Source: Arthrobacter sp. B3I4
GTDB taxonomy: Bacteria; Actinomycetota; Actinomycetes; Actinomycetales; Micrococcaceae
DNA: 64,000 nt
Assembly: GCF_030816855.1 (NCBI RefSeq)
Contig: NZ_JAUSYK010000001.1
Location: 1,364,001-1,428,000, forward strand
Reading direction: 5' to 3'
Shown here: in pieces, positions 613 to 35,612 of the stretch
How positions within the stretch are numbered: the stretch's first letter is position 1
Layout of the letters: each line of letters starts with the position of its first letter
Notes under the pieces: model-generated
What the model saw: only the letters and a program-made list of their open reading frames with translations
What the model was told of the DNA's origin: nothing
Database searches by the model: none
Position numbers and translations under genes: made by a program

Positions 613-1475
613 TGGCGGACCAGCCCGGCGGACTCGACGCCGAGGGATTCGGAACACTGCTGGTGGAAGAACGTGCGGACCGGCTGGTGGTGCGCCTCAA
701 CCGCCCCGAGGTCCGGAACGCCATCGACCAGCAGATGGTCGACGAACTGCACCGCGTCTGCGCGTACCTCGAACAAACGCCAAAGGTGCTCATTCTTGCC
801 GGTGCCGACGGCGTGTTCGCCTCCGGTGCCGACATCGCCCAGCTGCGCGAGCGACGGCGCGATGACGCACTGCAGGGGATCAACTCGACCATCTTCGTCC
901 GCATCGCGAAGCTGCCGATGCCCGTTATCGCCGCTCTGGATGGTTTCTGCCTCGGCGGCGGCGCCGAGCTCGCCTACGCGGCCGACTTCCGGATCGGCAC
1001 GCCCGGTATCCGGATCGGCAACCCCGAGACCGGCCTGGGCATCCTGGCTGCTGCCGGGGCCAGTTGGCGGCTCAAGGAACTGGTGGGGGAGCCGGTAGCC
1101 AAGGAAATCCTGCTGGCCGGCGCGGTGCTCCGTGCCGACCGGGCCCTCGCCGTCGGCCTTGTCACCGAGATCCACGAACCCGCGCAGCTGATCGACGCCG
1201 CCCACGCCCTGGCTGACCGGATCGGCCGGCAGGATCCTCTCGCTGTCCGCATCACCAAGTCCGTGTTCCACGCCCCGGCCGAGTCGCACCCGCTGATTGA
1301 CCAGCTGGCGCAGGGCATCCTCTTTGAATCCCAGGCCAAGTTCGACCGCATGCAGGCCTTCCTGGACCGGAAGACCGACAAGAAAACGGACAAAAAGGCA
1401 GCAGAAAAGGCCGACAACGCAACTGACAGCAAGTCAGCTAGTACGCCAGAGCAGAACCCGGACCGGAAGAAGTAG
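612..1475 (+). CDS. enoyl-CoA hydratase/isomerase, PaaF-like
   Basis: Crotonase-fold protein of 287 residues. Both oxyanion-hole segments are visible (ASGADIAQL near residue 70; GFCLGGGAELAYAADF near residue 105). The ATG at 612 overlaps the thiolase stop, which fixes the start and implies translational coupling. It probably hydrates 2,3-dehydroadipyl-CoA in the lower phenylacetate pathway. The last ~35 residues form a lysine- and aspartate-rich tail (RKTDKKTDKKAAEK) not expected in the core fold and probably disordered. The PaaF assignment rests on the thiolase and dehydrogenase on either side; a general fatty-acid hydratase is the alternative. Confidence 0.85.
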   Translation: MADQPGGLDAEGFGTLLVEERADRLVVRLNRPEVRNAIDQQMVDELHRVCAYLEQTPKVLILAGADGVFASGADIAQLRERRRDDALQGINSTIFVRIAKLPMPVIAALDGFCLGGGAELAYAADFRIGTPGIRIGNPETGLGILAAAGASWRLKELVGEPVAKEILLAGAVLRADRALAVGLVTEIHEPAQLIDAAHALADRIGRQDPLAVRITKSVFHAPAESHPLIDQLAQGILFESQAKFDRMQAFLDRKTDKKTDKKAAEKADNATDSKSASTPEQNPDRKK

Positions 1476-1477
1476 AC

Positions 1478-2365
1478 ATGAGCAACCCCGAACTCCCCGC
1501 GAACAGTCCCGGCGCCGCCCTTCCCGACTCCGTCGGGGTGCTCGGCGGCGGCCGGATGGGCGCCGGTATCGCCCACGCCTTCCTCATCAACGGTGCCAGC
1601 GTCCTCGTCGTGGAACGCGACGAACAGTCAGCGGAGGCAGCCCGTGAGCGCGTGGAGTCCGCGGCGGCCAAGAGCATTGAGCGGGGTGCCACCGACGGTA
1701 ACCTCGACGAAATGGTTTCCCGGCTGGCCGTGACCGTGGATTACGACGACTTCAAAGACCGGCAGCTGGTGATCGAGGCCGTGCCCGAGGATTGGAACCT
1801 CAAAGTGGCCTCCCTGCGCGGCATCGAGGATCGGCTGGCGCCGGACGCGTACCTTGCCTCCAACACCTCGTCACTGTCGGTCAACGGCCTGGCGCGCGAG
1901 CTGAGGCGGCCGCAAAACTTCCTGGGTTTGCACTTCTTCAACCCGGTCCCGGCGTCCACATTGATCGAGGTAGTGCTCGGCGAGCAGACGTCCGAGGCCC
2001 TCGCCTGGGCTGCTCGCGGCTGGGTTGAAGCGCTGGGCAAGACCGCCGTCGTCGTCAATGACGCCCCAGGTTTCGCCTCGTCGCGGCTGGGCGTTGCTAT
2101 CGCCCTTGAAGCGATGCGCATGGTGGAGGAAGGCGTCGCCTCGGCTGAGGACATCGACAACGCCATGGTCCTGGGCTACAAACACCCCACCGGCCCGCTG
2201 CGCACCACCGACATTGTTGGCCTGGACGTCCGGCTGGGCATCGCCGAATACCTGGCCTCCACGCTGGGCGAACGCTTCGCGCCGCCACAGATCCTCCGCG
2301 ACAAGGTGGCACGCGGTGAACTGGGACGCAAGACCGGCAAAGGCTTCTTCAACTGGGAAAAGTGA
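1478..2365 (+). CDS. 3-hydroxyacyl-CoA dehydrogenase, PaaH/FadB2 type
   Basis: Protein of 295 residues, the usual length for single-domain 3-hydroxyacyl-CoA dehydrogenases. An NAD-binding Rossmann motif GVLGGGRMGAGIA lies near residue 20, and HFFNPVP with the following dimerisation domain matches the family. It oxidises 3-hydroxyacyl-CoA with NAD+. It starts 2 bases after the hydratase stop, so it is the third gene of the thiolase-hydratase-dehydrogenase operon and most likely converts 3-hydroxyadipyl-CoA to 3-oxoadipyl-CoA. A 3-hydroxybutyryl-CoA dehydrogenase role cannot be excluded from sequence alone. Confidence 0.9.
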   Translation: MSNPELPANSPGAALPDSVGVLGGGRMGAGIAHAFLINGASVLVVERDEQSAEAARERVESAAAKSIERGATDGNLDEMVSRLAVTVDYDDFKDRQLVIEAVPEDWNLKVASLRGIEDRLAPDAYLASNTSSLSVNGLARELRRPQNFLGLHFFNPVPASTLIEVVLGEQTSEALAWAARGWVEALGKTAVVVNDAPGFASSRLGVAIALEAMRMVEEGVASAEDIDNAMVLGYKHPTGPLRTTDIVGLDVRLGIAEYLASTLGERFAPPQILRDKVARGELGRKTGKGFFNWEK

Positions 2366-2375
2366 GCCGGGCAGG

Positions 2376-2609
2376 CTAGTCGAGGATCCCGACGATGTAC
2401 CCGATGAAGTAGAGCGCCACTAGGAGCACTCCGCCGGCGATCATGATGATCCACAGGTACTGCATAAAGCCCCGGCCCTCGGGTATCTTTGGTCCCTGCG
2501 GCCCCACTGAGGTCCCCTCTGCCGGAGGTGTTTCGCCGGGCGGGACGCCCCCGCCCGGTTCAAGGCCGGTGACGTTGTTCTCGAGGGGATCCGGATTTTG
2601 GGATGTCAC
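2376..2609 (-). CDS. small single-span membrane protein, unknown function
   Basis: 77-residue protein with a GTG start preceded by AGGAG at a good distance. The first ~48 residues are polar and rich in Pro, Gly and Glu. The C-terminal third is one hydrophobic membrane segment (YLWIIMIAGGVLLVALYFIG). No enzymatic motif is visible. It ends 10 bases from the convergent dehydrogenase stop and lies downstream of the SRPBCC gene on the same strand, with a 27-base gap, so the two may be cotranscribed. Function unknown. Confidence 0.75.
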   Translation of the reverse strand: MTSQNPDPLENNVTGLEPGGGVPPGETPPAEGTSVGPQGPKIPEGRGFMQYLWIIMIAGGVLLVALYFIGYIVGILD

Positions 2610-2636
2610 AGTCTGCTCCTGTTCAACTCAGCGCCG

Positions 2637-3077
2637 CTAGAGCGATGCCTGGGAGTCGAGCGTCTTCTTCATGCCGTCCATCGCGGGGCCGGCCAGGGAG
2701 TTGAACGCGGGCCGGGCAATCGGTTCGGCGATTTTCCGCCAGCCCCTGAGCGTGAATTCGGCGGTGTAGTCCACTTTGGATCCCGAGCCATCCGGCGACA
2801 CGTCGATGGTGTCCACGGAGATGACCGCCTTGTTCTCGCCCCGCAGGGTGATGCGGCTGGCAGTCAGTTCGATGACCTCGTACGTCAGTGCCTGGCGCTT
2901 TCCGCGGAACTCGGCTTCGGCGTGGTAGCGGTGGCCGACGGCCACGGGCCCATCCGACAGCTTGTTAACCAAAGGTGTCCCGGGGTCCCACTCCGGCGTG
3001 TGCTCAAACGTCGAGAGGTAGGCGAAGGCCCTGGCGGGGTCAAGGGCGGAACGGACCGTGCCGTGAACTGTGATCAT
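2637..3077 (-). CDS. SRPBCC (START/polyketide cyclase-like) family protein
   Basis: 146-residue protein with the pattern of SRPBCC ligand-binding proteins: an opening beta strand (VHGTVRSALDP), FAYLSTFEHTPEWDPGT early in the fold, alternating hydrophobic strands, and a long C-terminal amphipathic helix. Such proteins bind hydrophobic ligands in a helix-grip cavity; members act as cyclases, carriers or toxin-like proteins. There is no signal peptide, so it is cytoplasmic. ATG start at 3077. Specific ligand not deducible. Confidence 0.8.
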   Translation of the reverse strand: MITVHGTVRSALDPARAFAYLSTFEHTPEWDPGTPLVNKLSDGPVAVGHRYHAEAEFRGKRQALTYEVIELTASRITLRGENKAVISVDTIDVSPDGSGSKVDYTAEFTLRGWRKIAEPIARPAFNSLAGPAMDGMKKTLDSQASL

Positions 3078-28791: not shown

Positions 28792-29379
28792 ATGACCGTA
28801 CAGAACCTTCCCCTGCGACTGCCCCTGCGGACGGATCGGCTGGTGCTGCGCCGCTTCGAGGCCGGGGACCTCGACGCCTTCCACGCCTACCACTCCCTGC
28901 CTGAGACCGCCCGGTTCCTGCCGAGGGAAGCCAAAAGCTACACCCAGTCGATGGAATCCGTCGGCAAATACGCCAACTTCGTCTTCGAGAAGGAAGGCGA
29001 CTGGATCTGCCTGGCGATCGAAGCGGCGGACGCGCCCGGGCTGCTCGGCGAAGTGGTGCTGAAGTGGCTGCCCGGCTGCGGCCAAGCCGAAATCGGCTGG
29101 AGCCTCGCTCCGGAGGCCCGCGGGAAAGGGTACGCGGCCGAGGCGGCGTCCGAGGTGCTGAGGCTCGGCTTCGAGGAGCTCGGCTTCCACCGGATCAACG
29201 CCAAACTCGACGCCCTCAATACCGCGTCCGCCGCACTGTGCGAGCGTCTCGGCATGCGCCTGGAATCCACCCAGGTGGACAAGTGGCACTACAAGGGTCA
29301 GTGGGCCACTGAGGTCGTTTATGCGCTGCTCGCCGAGGAGTGGCAAGGCCGACGGCGGACCACGGACTCAACGGTTTGA
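28792..29379 (+). CDS. GNAT family N-acetyltransferase (RimJ/RimL-like)
   Basis: 195 residues from the ATG at 28792 (MTVQNLPLRL), preferred over a start 18 bases upstream because GGGGG is close. Typical RimJ/L phrases are LRTDRLVLRRFEAGDLDAF at the start, the acetyl-CoA loop EARGKGYAAEAASEV, and ELGFHRINAKLDALNTAS. It transfers acetyl from acetyl-CoA to an unknown amine. It sits between a family A repeat and a family B palindrome; probably monocistronic. Confidence 0.88.
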   Translation: MTVQNLPLRLPLRTDRLVLRRFEAGDLDAFHAYHSLPETARFLPREAKSYTQSMESVGKYANFVFEKEGDWICLAIEAADAPGLLGEVVLKWLPGCGQAEIGWSLAPEARGKGYAAEAASEVLRLGFEELGFHRINAKLDALNTASAALCERLGMRLESTQVDKWHYKGQWATEVVYALLAEEWQGRRRTTDSTV

Positions 29380-29380
29380 C

Positions 29381-29424
29381 GAAGGTGGCCGCTATTGGGA
29401 TTCCATAGCGGCCATCTTTGGCAA
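29381..29424. repeat. palindromic repeat, family B copy 1
   Basis: GGCCGCTAT (29387-29395) pairs exactly with ATAGCGGCC (29405-29413) around a short loop, with weaker outer pairing to GCCATCTTTGGC. The core TTCCATAGCGGCCAT is identical in copy 2 at 29753-29797. It begins 2 bases after the acetyltransferase stop and may act as a terminator. Confidence 0.7.
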
Positions 29425-29752
29425 CTGAGCGTCTGAACCGGTCCGGCCGTGCTGGCTGCCGTTCCCGGCGGGTATTCACTGGGCCCGGGGTGGGAGCCGG
29501 GGCCCGACGCTCCTGCCCAGTTACTGGTGTCCGCACCGCCTCTGTCGGCGGCCAATCCGTGAAATTCCGCGGAATCTCCGGGACCCGTCCGGGCGCGGTG
29601 CCGGGTAACTGGGCTGGAGCGCGCGATGATCCGGCGGGCGTGGCTACACGGACACCCCGACGCCGGGCATGCCACCCAGGTGCGAGCTAGGGTTCCCGCC
29701 GCGCGGGCCCTCCCGGGATCTGCTGCCGTTGGACCGCCGAAGAGTTGTCGAT

Positions 29753-29797
29753 TAGCCAAGAATGGCCGCTACGGGGGTTCCATAGCGGCCATTCTTG
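29753..29797. repeat. palindromic repeat, family B copy 2
   Basis: Perfect 17-base arms, GCCAAGAATGGCCGCTA (29753-29769) and its complement (29781-29797), around an 11-base loop. It shares TTCCATAGCGGCCAT with copy 1. It lies about 100 bases beyond the M50 protease stop and could end that minus-strand transcript. Confidence 0.8.
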
Positions 29798-29898
29798 GCG
29801 AACGGGCGACCTTGCCGTGGCGGGACGCAGCAGCTTCCGGGCAGGCCGGCGGAACGGTCGAACGGTCGACCTTGCCTCGGCAGGATGCCCTGGATGCC

Positions 29899-32355
29899 CT
29901 ACGGCGCCGGCGGGGCCGTTGTCGCAGGAGCGGCCGACGTCGGTACAGGCGCTGGTTCGGTGGCGCCACCGGTGGGCTGGCCGGCGTCCGGAGTAACCGT
30001 TGGTGCCAACGTGGGCTCCGGCGCGGGCGCGGCGGGTTCGCCTGGCACCGGCGGTGCTGTCGTCCCGGCTTCCTCCGAGGCAGGCGGCAGGGTGGCGCCG
30101 GGGGACGCGGCTGGTGCGGGAGACTGCGTAGCGCCCGGGGAGGCCGTTGGCGTGGGGACGCCCGACCCGCCCGGAGTGGCGCTGGGATCGGTCCGGACGA
30201 TCTCCATGATTTGTTCCTTGAAGGCCTCCAACTTGCCCTCGATCTCGGCGAGCGGGACGTTCTGCAGGCTCCGGCCATATTCGGCGATCTGCTGCCACAA
30301 CGCGTTGAGCCGGGTCATGCCGTCGGCGCTGAGCGGGCCGTCCAGGGTGAGGACCAACTGGCTGGCCAGTGCGTAGGTGAGGCAGCCAAGGCAGTTGTAG
30401 TTGGCGGCGGTCGAGAGGTTCTCCGGAACAACGACGTCGGCCTGCCCCACAATGAGCACCACCTGGAACCCCACCGCAATGGCGGCGCAGTCCGTGCAGC
30501 TTGCGAACGCGTTCGCCTCGTTGCGGTTGCGGACGTCTTCCCCGTCCTCGGCCCACACAAGGGCGAACGCCACGTCGTAGACCACGGAGCCGTCGGTGGT
30601 GTTGACCGCAAGCGACTGGTTGCCGCCCTCCTCAGGTGCCGGCGGCATATCGAAAGGGAACACCCAGGACGGCGCCGCCGTCGTGGTGCCCGAGCCGCCG
30701 GACCCGCCCGAACCGTCGGAGGTCCCCGACCCGCCGGACCCGCCAGAACCGGACGTCTGACCAGCTGCGTCGCGGGGGACCAGCACCATGCTCAGCTGCG
30801 GCGCCTCGCGGGTGGGTTTCTTCGAACCGGCGGGCCACAGCGCCGTGGTCCGGCCGGCCTGACCCTGCTTGAGATGGCGCCCGGAAACAGCCGGGAAAAC
30901 CGCCGTGGTGACGTCGCTGAGCGTGCCGCGCTCGTAGGGTTGCACGGGCCGGTAGCTCTCCGCGCCGGGCCACCACGCCCAGGCAAGGCCCGCGATGACG
31001 GCTCCGACCGCAGCCATCGCGACAGCGCGCTGTATCGTCTTGCCCCGGGTCTTTTGCCACAAGTTGGTGATGAGCTGACGGCCGGTGCGCAGCAGGATGT
31101 ACAAGATGCCGAGGACCGGCAGCGCTATGCAGAGGACGGCCAGCACGCGCACGGCAGCGTCGGCAAAGTCCCCCGCGCCCACGCTGTGGGAGAGCATGGC
31201 TTGCTGCTTCCAGCCGCTGGCCCAGGCTGTGCCGAGGATCCGCGGCAGCGCCAGCACCATGCTGACGATGCTGAAGGCCAGCAACGGCACCGTGATCAGC
31301 ACCCACGCAGTAACGACGGCGCGTGCCCAGGGCTTCAGCAGCTGCGCCTCGGGATCGGTACGGCGCCAGGGGATCAGGGCGAGCAAGGTCGGTTTGATCC
31401 GCTGGAACAGGTCAGGGACGCCGGTTGCGTCGGCCAGGATGTGGTACCCGTCGAAGCGGACCATGGGCAGCAGTTGCCGGACCATCTGAAGAATCTGGGT
31501 GACCACCACCAGCAGCAACGCGTCAAAGCCGGTGGCCCACCAGATGCCCATGATGGCGACGGCGACGATCGCGTTGAAGTACAGCCCGCCCAGGTCGGTG
31601 CGGATGCGGCCGGCCCGGCCCAGCCGGTAGGAGTCGGTGACGTCGGTGTAGAACGCCGGCCACATCAGGTACAGCCCCGTGCCCATGGCGCCGGGGGTTG
31701 CCCCGCCGCGACGGGCGGCGGCGGCATGCCCGAATTCGTGGAAGCCTGCCGACAGCACCGTGACCAACAGGATCAGCAGCACCAGGCCGGGGTTGGCGAA
31801 GGCGTCGTGCGTGGCCGAAGCCAGCCCCTTGACCATCAGCACCCACCAGCAGGCGGCGAGGAAAGCGGCCGTCACGGCGACGACGAGCAGCGGATTGAAC
31901 AGTGCAACGAACGGTGCGGTCAGTTTCCGCGTACGTTCCGGGTCCGTCACGGTGTACCGGAACCGCATCCCCAAGAGCGGATTCGATTTCTTGACTTCCG
32001 GCTGGGAACCGTCGGCGAGCCGCAGGACGCCCAACGGGAGCAGCTGCGTGTCGATGAGTGTCTGTACGTTCGCCGCGCTGACCTGCTTACCGGAAGCGTT
32101 ACCGGCATGCTGCGCGATCTCTTCGAGGCTGCGGCTGCCGTCCACGGCCTCAAGCACCTGGTAAAGCAGGGGCGTCAGCTGGAGCGTTTGTCCGTCGGCG
32201 CGGCGGACCAGGGACGGGGCCTGCTTGTAGCCGGAGCCCTTCGTCTGGCCGATCAGTTGGACGCCGTCGGCCAAGGCAGGGGGCGGCAAGGTGCCCGGGG
32301 CAGCAGAGGCCGGCGGGCCGTCCTGCGCGGACGGCCCGCCTTGCACGGTAGTCAT
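29899..32355 (-). CDS. membrane M50-type zinc metalloprotease with PqqD-like N-terminal domain and CxxC C-terminal domain
   Basis: 818 residues from the ATG at 32355, 7 bases after the upstream gene's stop. Residues ~1-35 are disordered. Residues ~42-118 look like a PqqD/RRE winged helix (LTPLLYQVLEAVDGSRSLEE). Around seven spans follow (~149-462) with the zinc motif HEFGH (206-210) and the third-ligand motif VRFDGYHILAD (~300). The outer C-terminal part has a Gly/Ser linker, then a domain with paired SCTDC and NCLGC cysteines, then a Pro/Thr/Ala tail. It resembles proteins annotated putative peptide zinc metalloprotease (YydH-like). It probably cleaves or exports its operon partner; this is inferred. 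Confidence 0.83.
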   Translation of the reverse strand: MTTVQGGPSAQDGPPASAAPGTLPPPALADGVQLIGQTKGSGYKQAPSLVRRADGQTLQLTPLLYQVLEAVDGSRSLEEIAQHAGNASGKQVSAANVQTLIDTQLLPLGVLRLADGSQPEVKKSNPLLGMRFRYTVTDPERTRKLTAPFVALFNPLLVVAVTAAFLAACWWVLMVKGLASATHDAFANPGLVLLILLVTVLSAGFHEFGHAAAARRGGATPGAMGTGLYLMWPAFYTDVTDSYRLGRAGRIRTDLGGLYFNAIVAVAIMGIWWATGFDALLLVVVTQILQMVRQLLPMVRFDGYHILADATGVPDLFQRIKPTLLALIPWRRTDPEAQLLKPWARAVVTAWVLITVPLLAFSIVSMVLALPRILGTAWASGWKQQAMLSHSVGAGDFADAAVRVLAVLCIALPVLGILYILLRTGRQLITNLWQKTRGKTIQRAVAMAAVGAVIAGLAWAWWPGAESYRPVQPYERGTLSDVTTAVFPAVSGRHLKQGQAGRTTALWPAGSKKPTREAPQLSMVLVPRDAAGQTSGSGGSGGSGTSDGSGGSGGSGTTTAAPSWVFPFDMPPAPEEGGNQSLAVNTTDGSVVYDVAFALVWAEDGEDVRNRNEANAFASCTDCAAIAVGFQVVLIVGQADVVVPENLSTAANYNCLGCLTYALASQLVLTLDGPLSADGMTRLNALWQQIAEYGRSLQNVPLAEIEGKLEAFKEQIMEIVRTDPSATPGGSGVPTPTASPGATQSPAPAASPGATLPPASEEAGTTAPPVPGEPAAPAPEPTLAPTVTPDAGQPTGGATEPAPVPTSAAPATTAPPAP

Positions 32356-32362
32356 CGAGTAG

Positions 32363-33145
32363 TTACTGCTGGATGTTCGACTGCTGGTCGGCCGAGGCCG
32401 TGGCCTCGCCCTCGATGTTCTGCGTGATGATCGCGTCCTGCTGCGACACGGCGTAGGCGTTGCTGTCGATGGACCCGATGTTGGCTGCCACCGCCGCATC
32501 GATCGGGGCGGCAACGTTGGCGTTGGCCGCCACTGCGCCGTTGATCGGCGCGGTAATTCCGGCGTTGGCGTCGAGGTTGACGTCGACGTTGAGGAGGTTG
32601 CCGTTGAGTGCCCCGGCGGCGTCGGTCGGCAGTGCGCCGAGATCGGGCGCCGTGCCGTCCGGGAGAACGTCCGTGGCACCGCCGACGACGCCGTCCACCG
32701 CCCCGTCCAGCGTTCCTCCCGGCAGGGTGCCGCCGGCGTCGACGGTCGCCCCGGAAGCATCCGCCAGAGTGCCGTCGGCGGTGCCGGCGTCACCTGCGGC
32801 GGCAGGAGCGCCGGAGTCTGCGGCCTGATCGATGCCGCTGTCCTGAAGGGAGGTGGCGTTCGCGTCGGCCGTGATGCCCTGGTTGATGATGACGCCCTGG
32901 TCGGAGAGGGCCTGAGCCTCCGAGCCGGCGGAGAGGATATTGGCGGAAGCCGCAGCGTCGATCGGCGCAGCCACGTTGGCGTTCGCCGCGACGGCAAGGT
33001 CGATCGGCGCGGCCGCATCGATGCCCAGGTTCAGGTCGGCGTTCAGGTCCAGTACGGAGGCGACTTCCTTGGCGGGCAGGGCGGTGGCACCCTCGACCAT
33101 CAGTTCCTCGTCGGACAATCCGTTCATGGTTTGGTCAGTACTCAC
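32363..33145 (-). CDS. acidic two-repeat protein with leader-like N-terminus, putative substrate of the adjacent M50 protease
   Basis: 260 residues from the GTG at 33145, preceded by GGAG at 6 bases; a GTG at 33166 would add 7 residues. The start MSTDQTMNGLSDEELMVEGA resembles a RiPP-type leader helix (LSDEEL). Two diverged repeats (~33-104 and ~185-258) share AVAANANVAAPIDAA and flank a Gly/Asp/Ala-rich linker. There is no Cys, Trp or Phe, very few basic residues and no signal peptide. Function unknown. Coupling to the PqqD-M50 gene suggests that it is recognised and processed by it. Confidence 0.75.
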   Translation of the reverse strand: MSTDQTMNGLSDEELMVEGATALPAKEVASVLDLNADLNLGIDAAAPIDLAVAANANVAAPIDAAASANILSAGSEAQALSDQGVIINQGITADANATSLQDSGIDQAADSGAPAAAGDAGTADGTLADASGATVDAGGTLPGGTLDGAVDGVVGGATDVLPDGTAPDLGALPTDAAGALNGNLLNVDVNLDANAGITAPINGAVAANANVAAPIDAAVAANIGSIDSNAYAVSQQDAIITQNIEGEATASADQQSNIQQ

Positions 33146-33335: not shown

Positions 33336-35612
33336 CTACTTCAGGCCCGCGCCGGGGAGGAGTTCGACGGCGCCCAGGGAGTCGGCGACGAACGCGTAGT
33401 CCCAGGCCCGTTCCTTCCACTGCACGTACCGGCCCGAGGCGCCGCCGTGGCCACCGTCCATTTCGATCTTCATCACGATCGGCTCGCTGCCGGTGTTCAG
33501 TTCACGCAGCCGCTGCACCCACTTGGCCGGCTCCACGTAAAGCACCCGCGTGTCATTGAACGAGGTCACCGCGGCGATCTTGGGATACGCCGCGGCCCGG
33601 ACGTTCTCATACGGCGTGTACGACTTCATGTACCGGTAGACGTCCGGGTCCGTGATCGGGTTGCCCCATTCCTCCCATTCCAGCGCGGAGAGCGGCAGTT
33701 CCGGATCCAGAATCGTGGTCAGGGCATCAACGAAGGGCACGGCCGCGACGATCGCGGCGTACTTCTCCGGGGCCAGGTTGGCGACGGCGCCCATCAGCAA
33801 GCCGCCGGCGGAACCGCCCATCGCCGCGATCCGGCCCGGGTCCACCCAGCCGGAACCGGCGAGCCAGTCGGTGGCCGCGATGAAGTCCGTGAAGGTGTTT
33901 TTCTTGTGCAGTTTCTTGCCGTCGTCGTACCAGTGCCGGCCAAGTTCACCGCCGCCGCGGATGTGCGCGATCACGAAGACAATGCCGCGGTCCAGCAGCG
34001 AGAGCCGGGGGATCCCGAAGCCCGGATCCATGCTCAGTTCGTAGGAGCCGTAGCCGTACACCAGCCCGGCCGCCGTCGAGTCCTGCGGCACGGAGGCGTG
34101 CCGCAGCACCGAGAGCGGAATGCGGGTGCCGTCGGAGGCCACCGCCCACTCACGGGTCGCGACGTAATCGGCGGCGGAGTAGCCGCCCAGCACCGGGCTT
34201 TCCTTGCGCAGCAGCAGTTCGCCCGCCGGAAGCTCCGCCGTCGGCAGGACAAAGTCGTAGACCCGCGACGGCGTGAAGTAGGAGGTGTAGCCCATCCGGA
34301 TCACCGGAGCGTCGTAGTCGGAGCCGGCGACCCCCGCCGTGTACAGCTCCTCCTCGAAGGCCGGCTCGACGGCGGCGCCCTGGCTATCGGTGCCCAGTCC
34401 CGCCAGCGGGAGAACCTGGACGCGTTCGATCGTGTCTTTGCGGATGGAGAGCACCAGATGCGTGGAGGTGACGCCGGCGCCGTTGATGCGCACCTCGTCT
34501 GAGTGCGCGACGACGGTGCGCCAGTGCTGCTCGGCGACGGGTTTGGCCAGCTCGGCCGGGTCCACGAGCGAAACCATCGAGTTGATGGCGTCCTTGTTGT
34601 GGGTCAGCAGGATGGTTTCGGTGGGAACTCCGGAGGCGTCGGCCAGCAGGAAGGGTTCGGCCTCGTAGAGGATGCGCTCGTCGCGGGAGATGACGGTCGT
34701 GAGCCCGGCGTCGGGCGCGTCGAACCGCAGCAGCCGGGTCTCGCTGAACTCGGAGCATCCGATGCCAAGGACCAGGTGGCGGCGGTCAGCGGATAGCTCG
34801 AAGCCCAGCCACATGGCGACGTCGTCTTCCTGGTAAATCACCTCATCCTCGGTGACCGGGGTGCCCAGCACGTGCGCTTTCACCTGGTACGGGCGCCACG
34901 AGGCGTCCACCACGGTGTAGAAGATCCGGGTTCCGTCCGGGGAGAAGGAGATGCCGTAGAAGACGTTCTCAATCACATCGGGGAGCAGCTCGCCGGTGCG
35001 GAGGTCCTTGATGCGCAGGGTGAAGCGTTCATCGCCGGCGTTGTCCACAGCGTAGGCGTAAAGATTCCCGTCAACCGTGACAGCGGAGCCGCCGACGGCG
35101 AAGAACGGCTTGCCCTCGGCTTCTATGTTGCCGTCCAGGAGCACTTCCTCGCCGGGGATCGGGACGCCAACCTCGACGGCGGGGGGCGTCCAGTCGGCGA
35201 CCCGGTCAGCGCTGTCCTGGGCGCGGACGCGGCACTGTATGCCGTACTCCTTGCCTTCGACCGAGCGGGTGTAGTACCACCAGCCGTCCTTGCGGTTGGG
35301 TACGGAAAGGTCCGTCTCCTGGGTGCGGCCCTTGATCTCCTCGAAGATCGCCTGGCGCAGCGGCTCCTGGCCTGCGGTGACGACCTCCTGGTAGGCGTTT
35401 TCGGCCTTCAGCAGGTCCACGACCTCGGCGGATTCCTTATCCCGCAGCCACTCGTAGCTGTCCTCGAAGACATCACCGTGGTGCGTGCGAAGGAGCGGGA
35501 CCTTCCTGGCGACGGGGGGCCGCGGGGAGAGCTGCCCGGCAGCGGAGGGGCCGGTGGAGGGGCCGGCAGTGGACGGTCCGGTGGAAGAACCAGTGGCGTT
35601 GGTCTGCGTCAT
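33336..35612 (-). CDS. ptrB: oligopeptidase B-type S9 family serine peptidase
   Basis: 758 residues. The first ~30 residues are Ser/Thr/Pro-rich. Then come the S9A phrase HHGDVFEDSYEWLRDKE, a beta-propeller, and the catalytic alpha/beta-hydrolase domain. Landmarks are GGSAGGLLMGA with the nucleophilic Ser (~602), FNDTRVLYVEPAKW with the Asp, and DGGHGG with the His. There is no signal peptide, so it is cytoplasmic. It cleaves short peptides, in the family after basic residues. It opens with an ATG and ends 12 bases from repeat A2. Confidence 0.9.
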   Translation of the reverse strand: MTQTNATGSSTGPSTAGPSTGPSAAGQLSPRPPVARKVPLLRTHHGDVFEDSYEWLRDKESAEVVDLLKAENAYQEVVTAGQEPLRQAIFEEIKGRTQETDLSVPNRKDGWWYYTRSVEGKEYGIQCRVRAQDSADRVADWTPPAVEVGVPIPGEEVLLDGNIEAEGKPFFAVGGSAVTVDGNLYAYAVDNAGDERFTLRIKDLRTGELLPDVIENVFYGISFSPDGTRIFYTVVDASWRPYQVKAHVLGTPVTEDEVIYQEDDVAMWLGFELSADRRHLVLGIGCSEFSETRLLRFDAPDAGLTTVISRDERILYEAEPFLLADASGVPTETILLTHNKDAINSMVSLVDPAELAKPVAEQHWRTVVAHSDEVRINGAGVTSTHLVLSIRKDTIERVQVLPLAGLGTDSQGAAVEPAFEEELYTAGVAGSDYDAPVIRMGYTSYFTPSRVYDFVLPTAELPAGELLLRKESPVLGGYSAADYVATREWAVASDGTRIPLSVLRHASVPQDSTAAGLVYGYGSYELSMDPGFGIPRLSLLDRGIVFVIAHIRGGGELGRHWYDDGKKLHKKNTFTDFIAATDWLAGSGWVDPGRIAAMGGSAGGLLMGAVANLAPEKYAAIVAAVPFVDALTTILDPELPLSALEWEEWGNPITDPDVYRYMKSYTPYENVRAAAYPKIAAVTSFNDTRVLYVEPAKWVQRLRELNTGSEPIVMKIEMDGGHGGASGRYVQWKERAWDYAFVADSLGAVELLPGAGLK

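Follow-up and report, generated by a model that had tools for sequence, protein, structure and literature searches.

Results

A leader-bearing repeat protein and an RRE-M50 protease are encoded side by side in Arthrobacter

In Arthrobacter sp. B3I4, a 260-aa acidic two-repeat protein and a membrane protease of the M50 type encoded 7 nt downstream may form a leader-guided maturation and export unit. The protease would bind the leader of the repeat protein through a recognition element (RRE) of the kind known from ribosomally synthesized and post-translationally modified peptides (RiPPs), cut it with a site-2-protease core, and release the remainder outside the cell as a structural product of the surface; we put the probability of this reading at roughly 0.55. 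Both genes lie on the minus strand (33145..32363 and 32355..29899, respectively) of a 64,000-nt stretch of contig NZ_JAUSYK010000001.1 (positions 1,364,001 to 1,428,000), henceforth the window, and have the following features:

32363..33145 (-): two-repeat acidic substrate (precursor) protein, 260 aa, GTG start
33053..33145 (-): leader, with an acidic LSDEEL stretch and LPAKEVAS (33056-33079); putative end drawn at residue 31
32825..33052 (-): repeat 1, residues 32-107 (internal alignment; low-confidence predicted hairpin 82-106)
32588..32824 (-): low-complexity linker, residues 108-186 (length and sequence vary in the alignment)
32366..32587 (-): repeat 2, residues 187-260 (internal alignment; low-confidence predicted hairpin 235-259)
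29899..32355 (-): RRE-M50 membrane protease, 818 aa (NCBIfam profile matches)
32011..32292 (-): PqqD/RRE-like N-terminal domain, residues 22-115 (fold model)
30970..31887 (-): site-2-protease-like transmembrane region, residues 157-462 (hydropathy and NCBIfam alignments)
31726..31740 (-): HEFGH zinc-binding/catalytic motif, residues 206-210 (invariant 20/20)
31444..31455 (-): FDGY third-ligand motif, residues 301-304 (D302 and G303 invariant 20/20)
30181..30678 (-): CxxC...CxxC domain on the protease tail, residues 560-725, Cys 620, 623, 655 and 658 (all four invariant 20/20)
29902..30180 (-): Pro/Ala/Thr-rich C-terminal tail, variable

The initial annotation of this DNA described a repeat protein followed after 7 nt by an M50 protease with HEFGH and FDG sites, and we could confirm this description, HEFGH, D302 and G303 being invariant in 20 of 20 aligned relatives. 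The 818-aa protein has about seven hydrophobic segments and shows the combination that marks M50 proteases, a HExxH site and a distal DG ligand in a multi-pass membrane protein. Across 42 wider loci (set 1, defined below), HExxH is present in all and [RK][FL]DGY in 39, the exceptions being L103, L104 and the truncated L109. The protease matched the NCBIfam profiles daptide_HExxH (NF041824; residues 44-370, E 4.6e-33, 114.9 bits against a cut-off of 300) and YydH/LiaK (NF058609; E 1e-8, 35.1 bits against a cut-off of 225), and Pfam PF02163 scored 9.8 bits, below its cut-off of 27.2. The N-terminal domain was modelled as an RRE-type winged helix in the order β-β-β-α-α-α, the PqqD/RRE fold that had been predicted for it; among curated PqqD/RRE profiles, PF05402 gave no match and ApyI 16 bits against a cut-off of 200. 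The structure model of the protease is poor except for residues 21-120 and some of the membrane region. Two kinds of match were set aside, namely ABC-transporter rows in the structure comparison of this model, which are long-helix matches, and phrog_26112 in PHROGs (residues 532-558, E 0.0018), a Gly/Ser stretch taken as low complexity.

The 260-aa protein contains 28 Asp, 7 Glu, a single Lys and neither Arg nor Cys, and because it has no Cys it is not a disulfide substrate. Its N-terminus has no strongly hydrophobic stretch, and its best 19-residue hydropathy of 1.25 indicates no clear transmembrane segment. The two repeats align with a score of 177, against a maximum of 72 for shuffled sequences. 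In the leader, residues L23, P24, K26, E27, V28, A29 and S30 are invariant in 20 of 20 aligned relatives, and the body is nearly invariant in the alignment of the genus group (Arthrobacter and Pseudarthrobacter), linker excepted. We found 3458 homologues at E<=1e-3 (7994 candidates scored) and no plasmid copies. Neither Pfam nor NCBIfam yielded a family up to E 10, curlin included, and the name 'peptidoglycan-binding protein' that homologues bear at NCBI was rejected for want of domain support in the same searches.

The pair is retained where its flanking genes are absent

Co-occurrence in other genomes had been anticipated and was borne out. Scanning genomes with the protease yielded 50 loci, under Arthrobacter or Pseudarthrobacter titles except for one labelled Microbacterium, and in all 50 the repeat protein is encoded immediately upstream. 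The gap between the genes is 6-8 nt in 44 loci and 33-36 nt in another 5; L037, whose protease has a disrupted N-terminus, shows 389 nt. All 50 repeat proteins (213-264 aa) carry LPxKEVAS, end in Gln and lack Cys. The S9 peptidase gene beside the pair was retained in 38 of these loci, ackA in 37, pta in 28 and the GNAT gene in 27; none of these flanking genes occurs at the 57 loci outside the genus group, where protease and precursor are usually still together. We therefore rejected chance adjacency, given the constant pairing, the gap data and the persistence of the pair where the flanks are absent.

At the genus level, the protease core (E<=1e-15) was present in 61 of 101 genomes, with at least 73% identity in 55 and a second type or weak match only in the remainder. 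At the order level, the repeat protein was found in 4 of 99 genomes, the window's own included. That genome has a single clear copy of each gene (next-best rows E 1.5 and 0.07).

Six kinds of precursor body share a leader type upstream of one protease family

A 320-residue protease core (E<=1e-15) was found in 37 of 197 genomes at the class level and 20 of 198 at the phylum level, counts that include the own genome, have some genomes in common and contain a few weak or partial matches. Set 1 comprised 42 loci, made up of two plasmid loci and 40 stretches (39 of the 42 class-level places, the own place and two fragments being left out, and one order-level place), and set 2 comprised 34 stretches (all 18 new phylum-level places and 16 of 67 genus-level places). 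A leader rule made on set 1, which asks for a start codon, at least four acidic residues in the 18 before [LV]Px[KR], and 28-330 residues after it, gave 50 matches in 69,902 bp upstream of the set-1 proteases, one of which (L118, -1218) looks spurious, against 2 in 875,026 bp elsewhere. Applied to set 2, the rule gave 19 matches in 58,552 bp upstream against 3 in 576,106 bp elsewhere, with 6 of the 19 coming from the window's genus and 4 of those being of the window's type. Among loci with at least 600 bp upstream, a leader open reading frame (ORF) was present by the rule in 29 of 39 in set 1 and 12 of 34 in set 2, and with looser motifs (set 1, also inspection) in 38 of 39 and 24 of 34, these additions having been made after looking and constituting weaker evidence. 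In L152, L[EQ]DRE replaces LPxRE.

Six precursor kinds share the leader type, an acidic stretch followed by LPx[RK], and differ in their bodies:

Kind A: two-repeat, LPxKEVxS
Kind B: mostly about 68-105 aa, ELPDREQMSLVNANxAAPVNAAVAANVLSDNSVAYANAxQ
Kind C: LLPGREALG
Kind D: LLPERAVLS-like; Gly/His-rich bodies with Cys
Kind E: LLPSRETL-like
Kind F: LLPERTTLA-like

Three kind B precursors stand in tandem in 10 of 13 loci. Comparison of kinds A and B by hhalign aligned both repeat 1 with its leader (E 1.2e-14) and repeat 2 (E 4e-12), and to judge from these alignments kind A looks like an enlarged form of kind B, the ~70-aa peptides. One ~78-aa precursor had 7,730 homologues at E<=1e-3, and the names of the best 120, where shown, were all 'hypothetical protein'. 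In L150, a 188-residue open frame upstream of the protease holds two B-type repeats with Asn/Asp/Phe-rich spacers, perhaps a separate route to a multi-repeat substrate. Kind D precursors number three in L113 and two in L056, a locus on a linear Streptomyces plasmid of 82 kb; their sequences are rich in Gly/His or Gly and contain Cys. A supposed link between kind D and the Streptomyces spore proteins SapC/D/E was dropped after searches: the precursor matched its own plasmid only, its protease had no close plasmid relative beyond L055 among the best 20 of 56 matches, and the literature listed for it concerned something else.

The precursor kinds follow the protease phylogeny. The phylogeny was built from 62 protease cores, omitting 14 of the 76 loci to which no kind was assigned, and the 7 labels require 6 changes on it, the minimum, against a shuffled mean of 36.7; the labels came from the precursors rather than the proteases, and near-copies ease such clustering. 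Each of the six kinds corresponds to one protease clade, with full support for A, C, D, E and F and 80/96 for B, and the three rows labelled 'other' do not form one group. Six different bodies follow a single leader type upstream of a single protease family, so support for leader recognition is good, which strengthens the original proposal that the PqqD-like domain recognizes the repeat protein; that the protein is then cleaved or exported is something we infer.

A CxxC domain is a third component in several types

Using a profile built from the tails of the genus-group and wider type A proteases, we found the CxxC domain as part of the protease itself in 12 type A loci of set 1 (by construction) and encoded by a separate ORF in 18 others of the 42. 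A separate ORF on the protease strand ends 0.6-1.4 kb past the protease stop in 16 of the 18; in L110 and L112 the ORF is confined to the opposite strand, and L107 carries one per strand. Most separate CxxC proteins have an N-terminal signal-like stretch, as judged by eye. In set 2 (E<=1e-3) the domain is fused in 7 and separate in 2 of the 34 loci. This swap between fused and separate forms shows the CxxC domain to be part of the system in types A, B and C and in some of type E; it presumably lies outside the cell. Homology of the domain to the precursor bodies, which would have suited a nucleator, was unsupported (hhalign probabilities 0.8-13%), and an NCBIfam match of the CxxC protein to Bindosome_BasB (E 0.021, 14.8 bits against a cut-off of 230) was taken as chance; papers listed under the bindosome name deal with surface structures of archaea and ones resembling type IV pili.

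Neighbouring genes of set 1 were compared all against all (ORFs of at least 110 aa, best 25 clusters by spread). Apart from the protease, the CxxC protein and the precursors, no RiPP enzyme or transporter common to lineages was found in the 42 stretches, some of them cut by contig ends, nor was an immunity gene shared between these stretches. Other shared clusters were by eye opposite-strand or out-of-frame shadows, and scattered ones included a regulator-like cluster over four lineages and an aldehyde dehydrogenase-like cluster over three. Of the strict hallmarks of a RiPP, a leader is present, and no shared modifying enzyme was found among ORFs of that size in these stretches. The initial annotation's minimal two-gene system has to be widened by the CxxC domain, which in other types is a separate, secreted-looking gene.

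A proposed route from leader binding to the cell surface

In the route that we favor, the first step would be cytoplasmic binding of the protease RRE to the acidic LPxKExxS leader of the repeat protein, and the sequence evidence for this step is good. Cleavage of the leader by the site-2-protease core, at or within the membrane, would probably come next, as suggested by the intact active site and by related leader peptidases. The repeat part would be released outside the cell, no membrane component other than the protease being conserved. There, the CxxC domain may act as a receiver or assembly factor. The product would be an unmodified, β-prone Ala/Asn/Gln repeat protein, possibly structural or self-assembling at the surface rather than a modified antibiotic, this being the weakest step; the idea of β-assembly derives from two low-confidence hairpins and an alternating A/N/Q pattern. 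Elsewhere in the phylum, the same machine would handle short peptides with other bodies.

Several observations weigh against this route. The structure model of the substrate is poor (mean pLDDT 48.5), with both hairpins at low confidence, and assembly of the substrate, relying on such a model and on a protein with no Pfam domain, is speculative. No kinship of the kind C body to A or B was demonstrated (hhalign 6-11%). A leader ORF was not found in L131 of set 1 (29% identity, perhaps another family) or in 10 of the 34 loci of set 2 (L153, L154, L158, L160, L162, L163, L164, L165, L168 and L176). A CxxC partner was not found in 12 of the 42 loci of set 1 (those of types D and F, L114, L131, and L099, which is cut by a contig end) or in 25 of the 34 of set 2, at least three of which (L151, L152 and L156) end at the protease. 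Finally, the C-terminal part of type E proteases is a MinD/ParA-like ATPase domain (KGGxxKTT in all 13; in Pfam, CbiA at 3.3e-10 in L119 and AAA_31 at 0.0095, below cut-off, in L167), and because this tail is an ATPase domain an outside C-terminus fits the family as a whole poorly. A possible role of the type E domain is as an energy source for export. Type E loci (L119, L124, L126 and L166-L175) were found both within the genus Arthrobacter and beyond it, and 12 of the 13 have short precursors upstream. In L161, an RRE-M50 protease (1081-2859, plus strand) has a C-terminal DUF3105 (2.6e-39) and a leader-type precursor upstream.

Some features would also suit a RiPP-like antimicrobial system: precursors of ~70 aa stand in tandem and share a leader, with three of them in most type B loci, and the bodies diversify while the leader stays. 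On this view the small bodies would act as secreted bioactive peptides, and the two-repeat protein, as a double peptide, would be cut again after export; MpaP and EpeP serve secreted peptides (PMC10036551, PMC10885120). We regard such a system as unlikely, since modifying, immunity or ABC-transport genes common to the set-1 stretches were not found, the body of the window protein is nearly invariant within the genus group, unlike fast-changing toxins, and its 260 aa with a long linker speak against this reading. Regulated intramembrane proteolysis is the classic role of M50/site-2 enzymes, and an outside domain could be a sensor, so that the repeat protein might be a regulator, cytoplasmic or bound to the membrane, destroyed or activated by the protease on a signal sensed by the CxxC domain. 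This is distinctly unlikely in view of a substrate with neither a clear transmembrane segment nor a Pfam or NCBIfam domain, the RRE-like domain on the protease, and the other types, in which a locus holds between one and four small precursors in parallel, unlike a single regulator. No shared exporter was found, and EpeP has been proposed to export as well as to cleave (PMC10885120), which would fit an M50 domain acting as a leader-gated carrier without cutting, the leader being removed elsewhere; we hold this to be very improbable, as HExxH in all 42 wider loci and the third ligand in 39 argue for catalysis.

Leader-guided maturation and export, our preferred reading, could be extended to a modification-free secretion route across the Actinomycetota, in which one RRE-site-2-protease both recognizes a common LPx[RK] leader and brings β-forming repeat peptides to the surface, where an outside CxxC domain, fused or separate, serves as receiver or nucleator. 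That extension is tentative and, on present evidence, doubtful; if true, the route would parallel the assembly of curli-type extracellular fibres in function only.

Surroundings of the pair in the window

A same-strand S9 peptidase gene (33336..35612) lies on one side of the pair and convergent pta, ackA and GNAT genes on the other, the genes beside it being oligopeptidase B-like (the S9 peptidase), GNAT, ackA, pta, LCP and paa genes. None of the daptide genes mpaB/C/D/M was among the seven genes scanned around the pair. Scans for Rfam families, sigma-70 promoters and defence systems, and a search of phage records, gave no match. Between the convergent GNAT and protease genes there is a near-perfect hairpin in two copies (29376-29424 and 29752-29802) that agree at 80% over 46 nt; it may serve as a bidirectional terminator or be an element like repetitive extragenic palindromic (REP) sequences.

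Comparison with known systems

In open-licence literature, titles and the starts of abstracts gave no account of the pair or its leader, and the available excerpts of the RRE-Finder, structure-based RRE and second daptide papers (PMC7470986, PMC12710340, PMC12338566) contained nothing on comparable RRE-M50 fusions. By the curated cut-offs given above, the window protease is neither a daptide nor an epipeptide protease. It is like MpaP/DapP in having an N-terminal RRE fused to a site-2 core, with leader-motif precursors nearby, and unlike them in scoring below the NF041824 cut-off and in its extra CxxC tail. The leaders and C-termini also differ, with ELExMEAP and Thr in daptides and LPx[RK] and Gln in the window. 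MpaP itself is described as combining an RRE with a site-2 protease in one protein, and it is said to take off the daptide leader (PMC10036551). The window's neighbours are not daptide enzymes, unlike those of L057 on a plasmid of Streptomyces sp. NBC_01351, a daptide cluster in which, by annotation, mpaP has genes for a class III lanthionine synthetase and a YcaO-like protein as neighbours, perhaps a hybrid pathway.

Epipeptide loci have a radical-SAM partner and an ABC transporter, neither of which was seen beside the window pair. With EpeP/YydH/LiaK the window protease shares an M50 core and, as proposed here, leader removal with little other machinery, and it differs in falling below the NF058609 cut-off and in its RRE-like domain. 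EpeP sufficed for the production of the epipeptide and has been proposed both to cleave and to export it, although production was not fully abolished by its deletion (PMC10885120). TmcP, an S2P-clan (site-2 protease) enzyme, removes the TMcin leader at the membrane with helper proteins (PMC13252029), which resembles the role proposed for the window protease. In contrast, TmcP is a PF11667 protein, and the TMcin precursor has a transmembrane helix and a disulfide, whereas the window substrate has neither. The Q/N/A-spaced repeats and predicted β-hairpins of that substrate may resemble those of curli-type amyloid subunits; unlike those subunits, it has no Pfam match at E<=10, and its hairpins are low-confidence models.

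RRE-protease fusions are known from daptides, a peptide antibiotic-type pathway, while here the substrates come without shared modifying enzymes and include protein-sized repeats; if the proposed route is true, leader recognition would extend beyond RiPP chemistry. We place RRE-site-2-protease leader processing as known, the variant described here as new, and its substrate family as large and unnamed, with a two-gene set that allows direct tests of leader binding, intramembrane cleavage and export.

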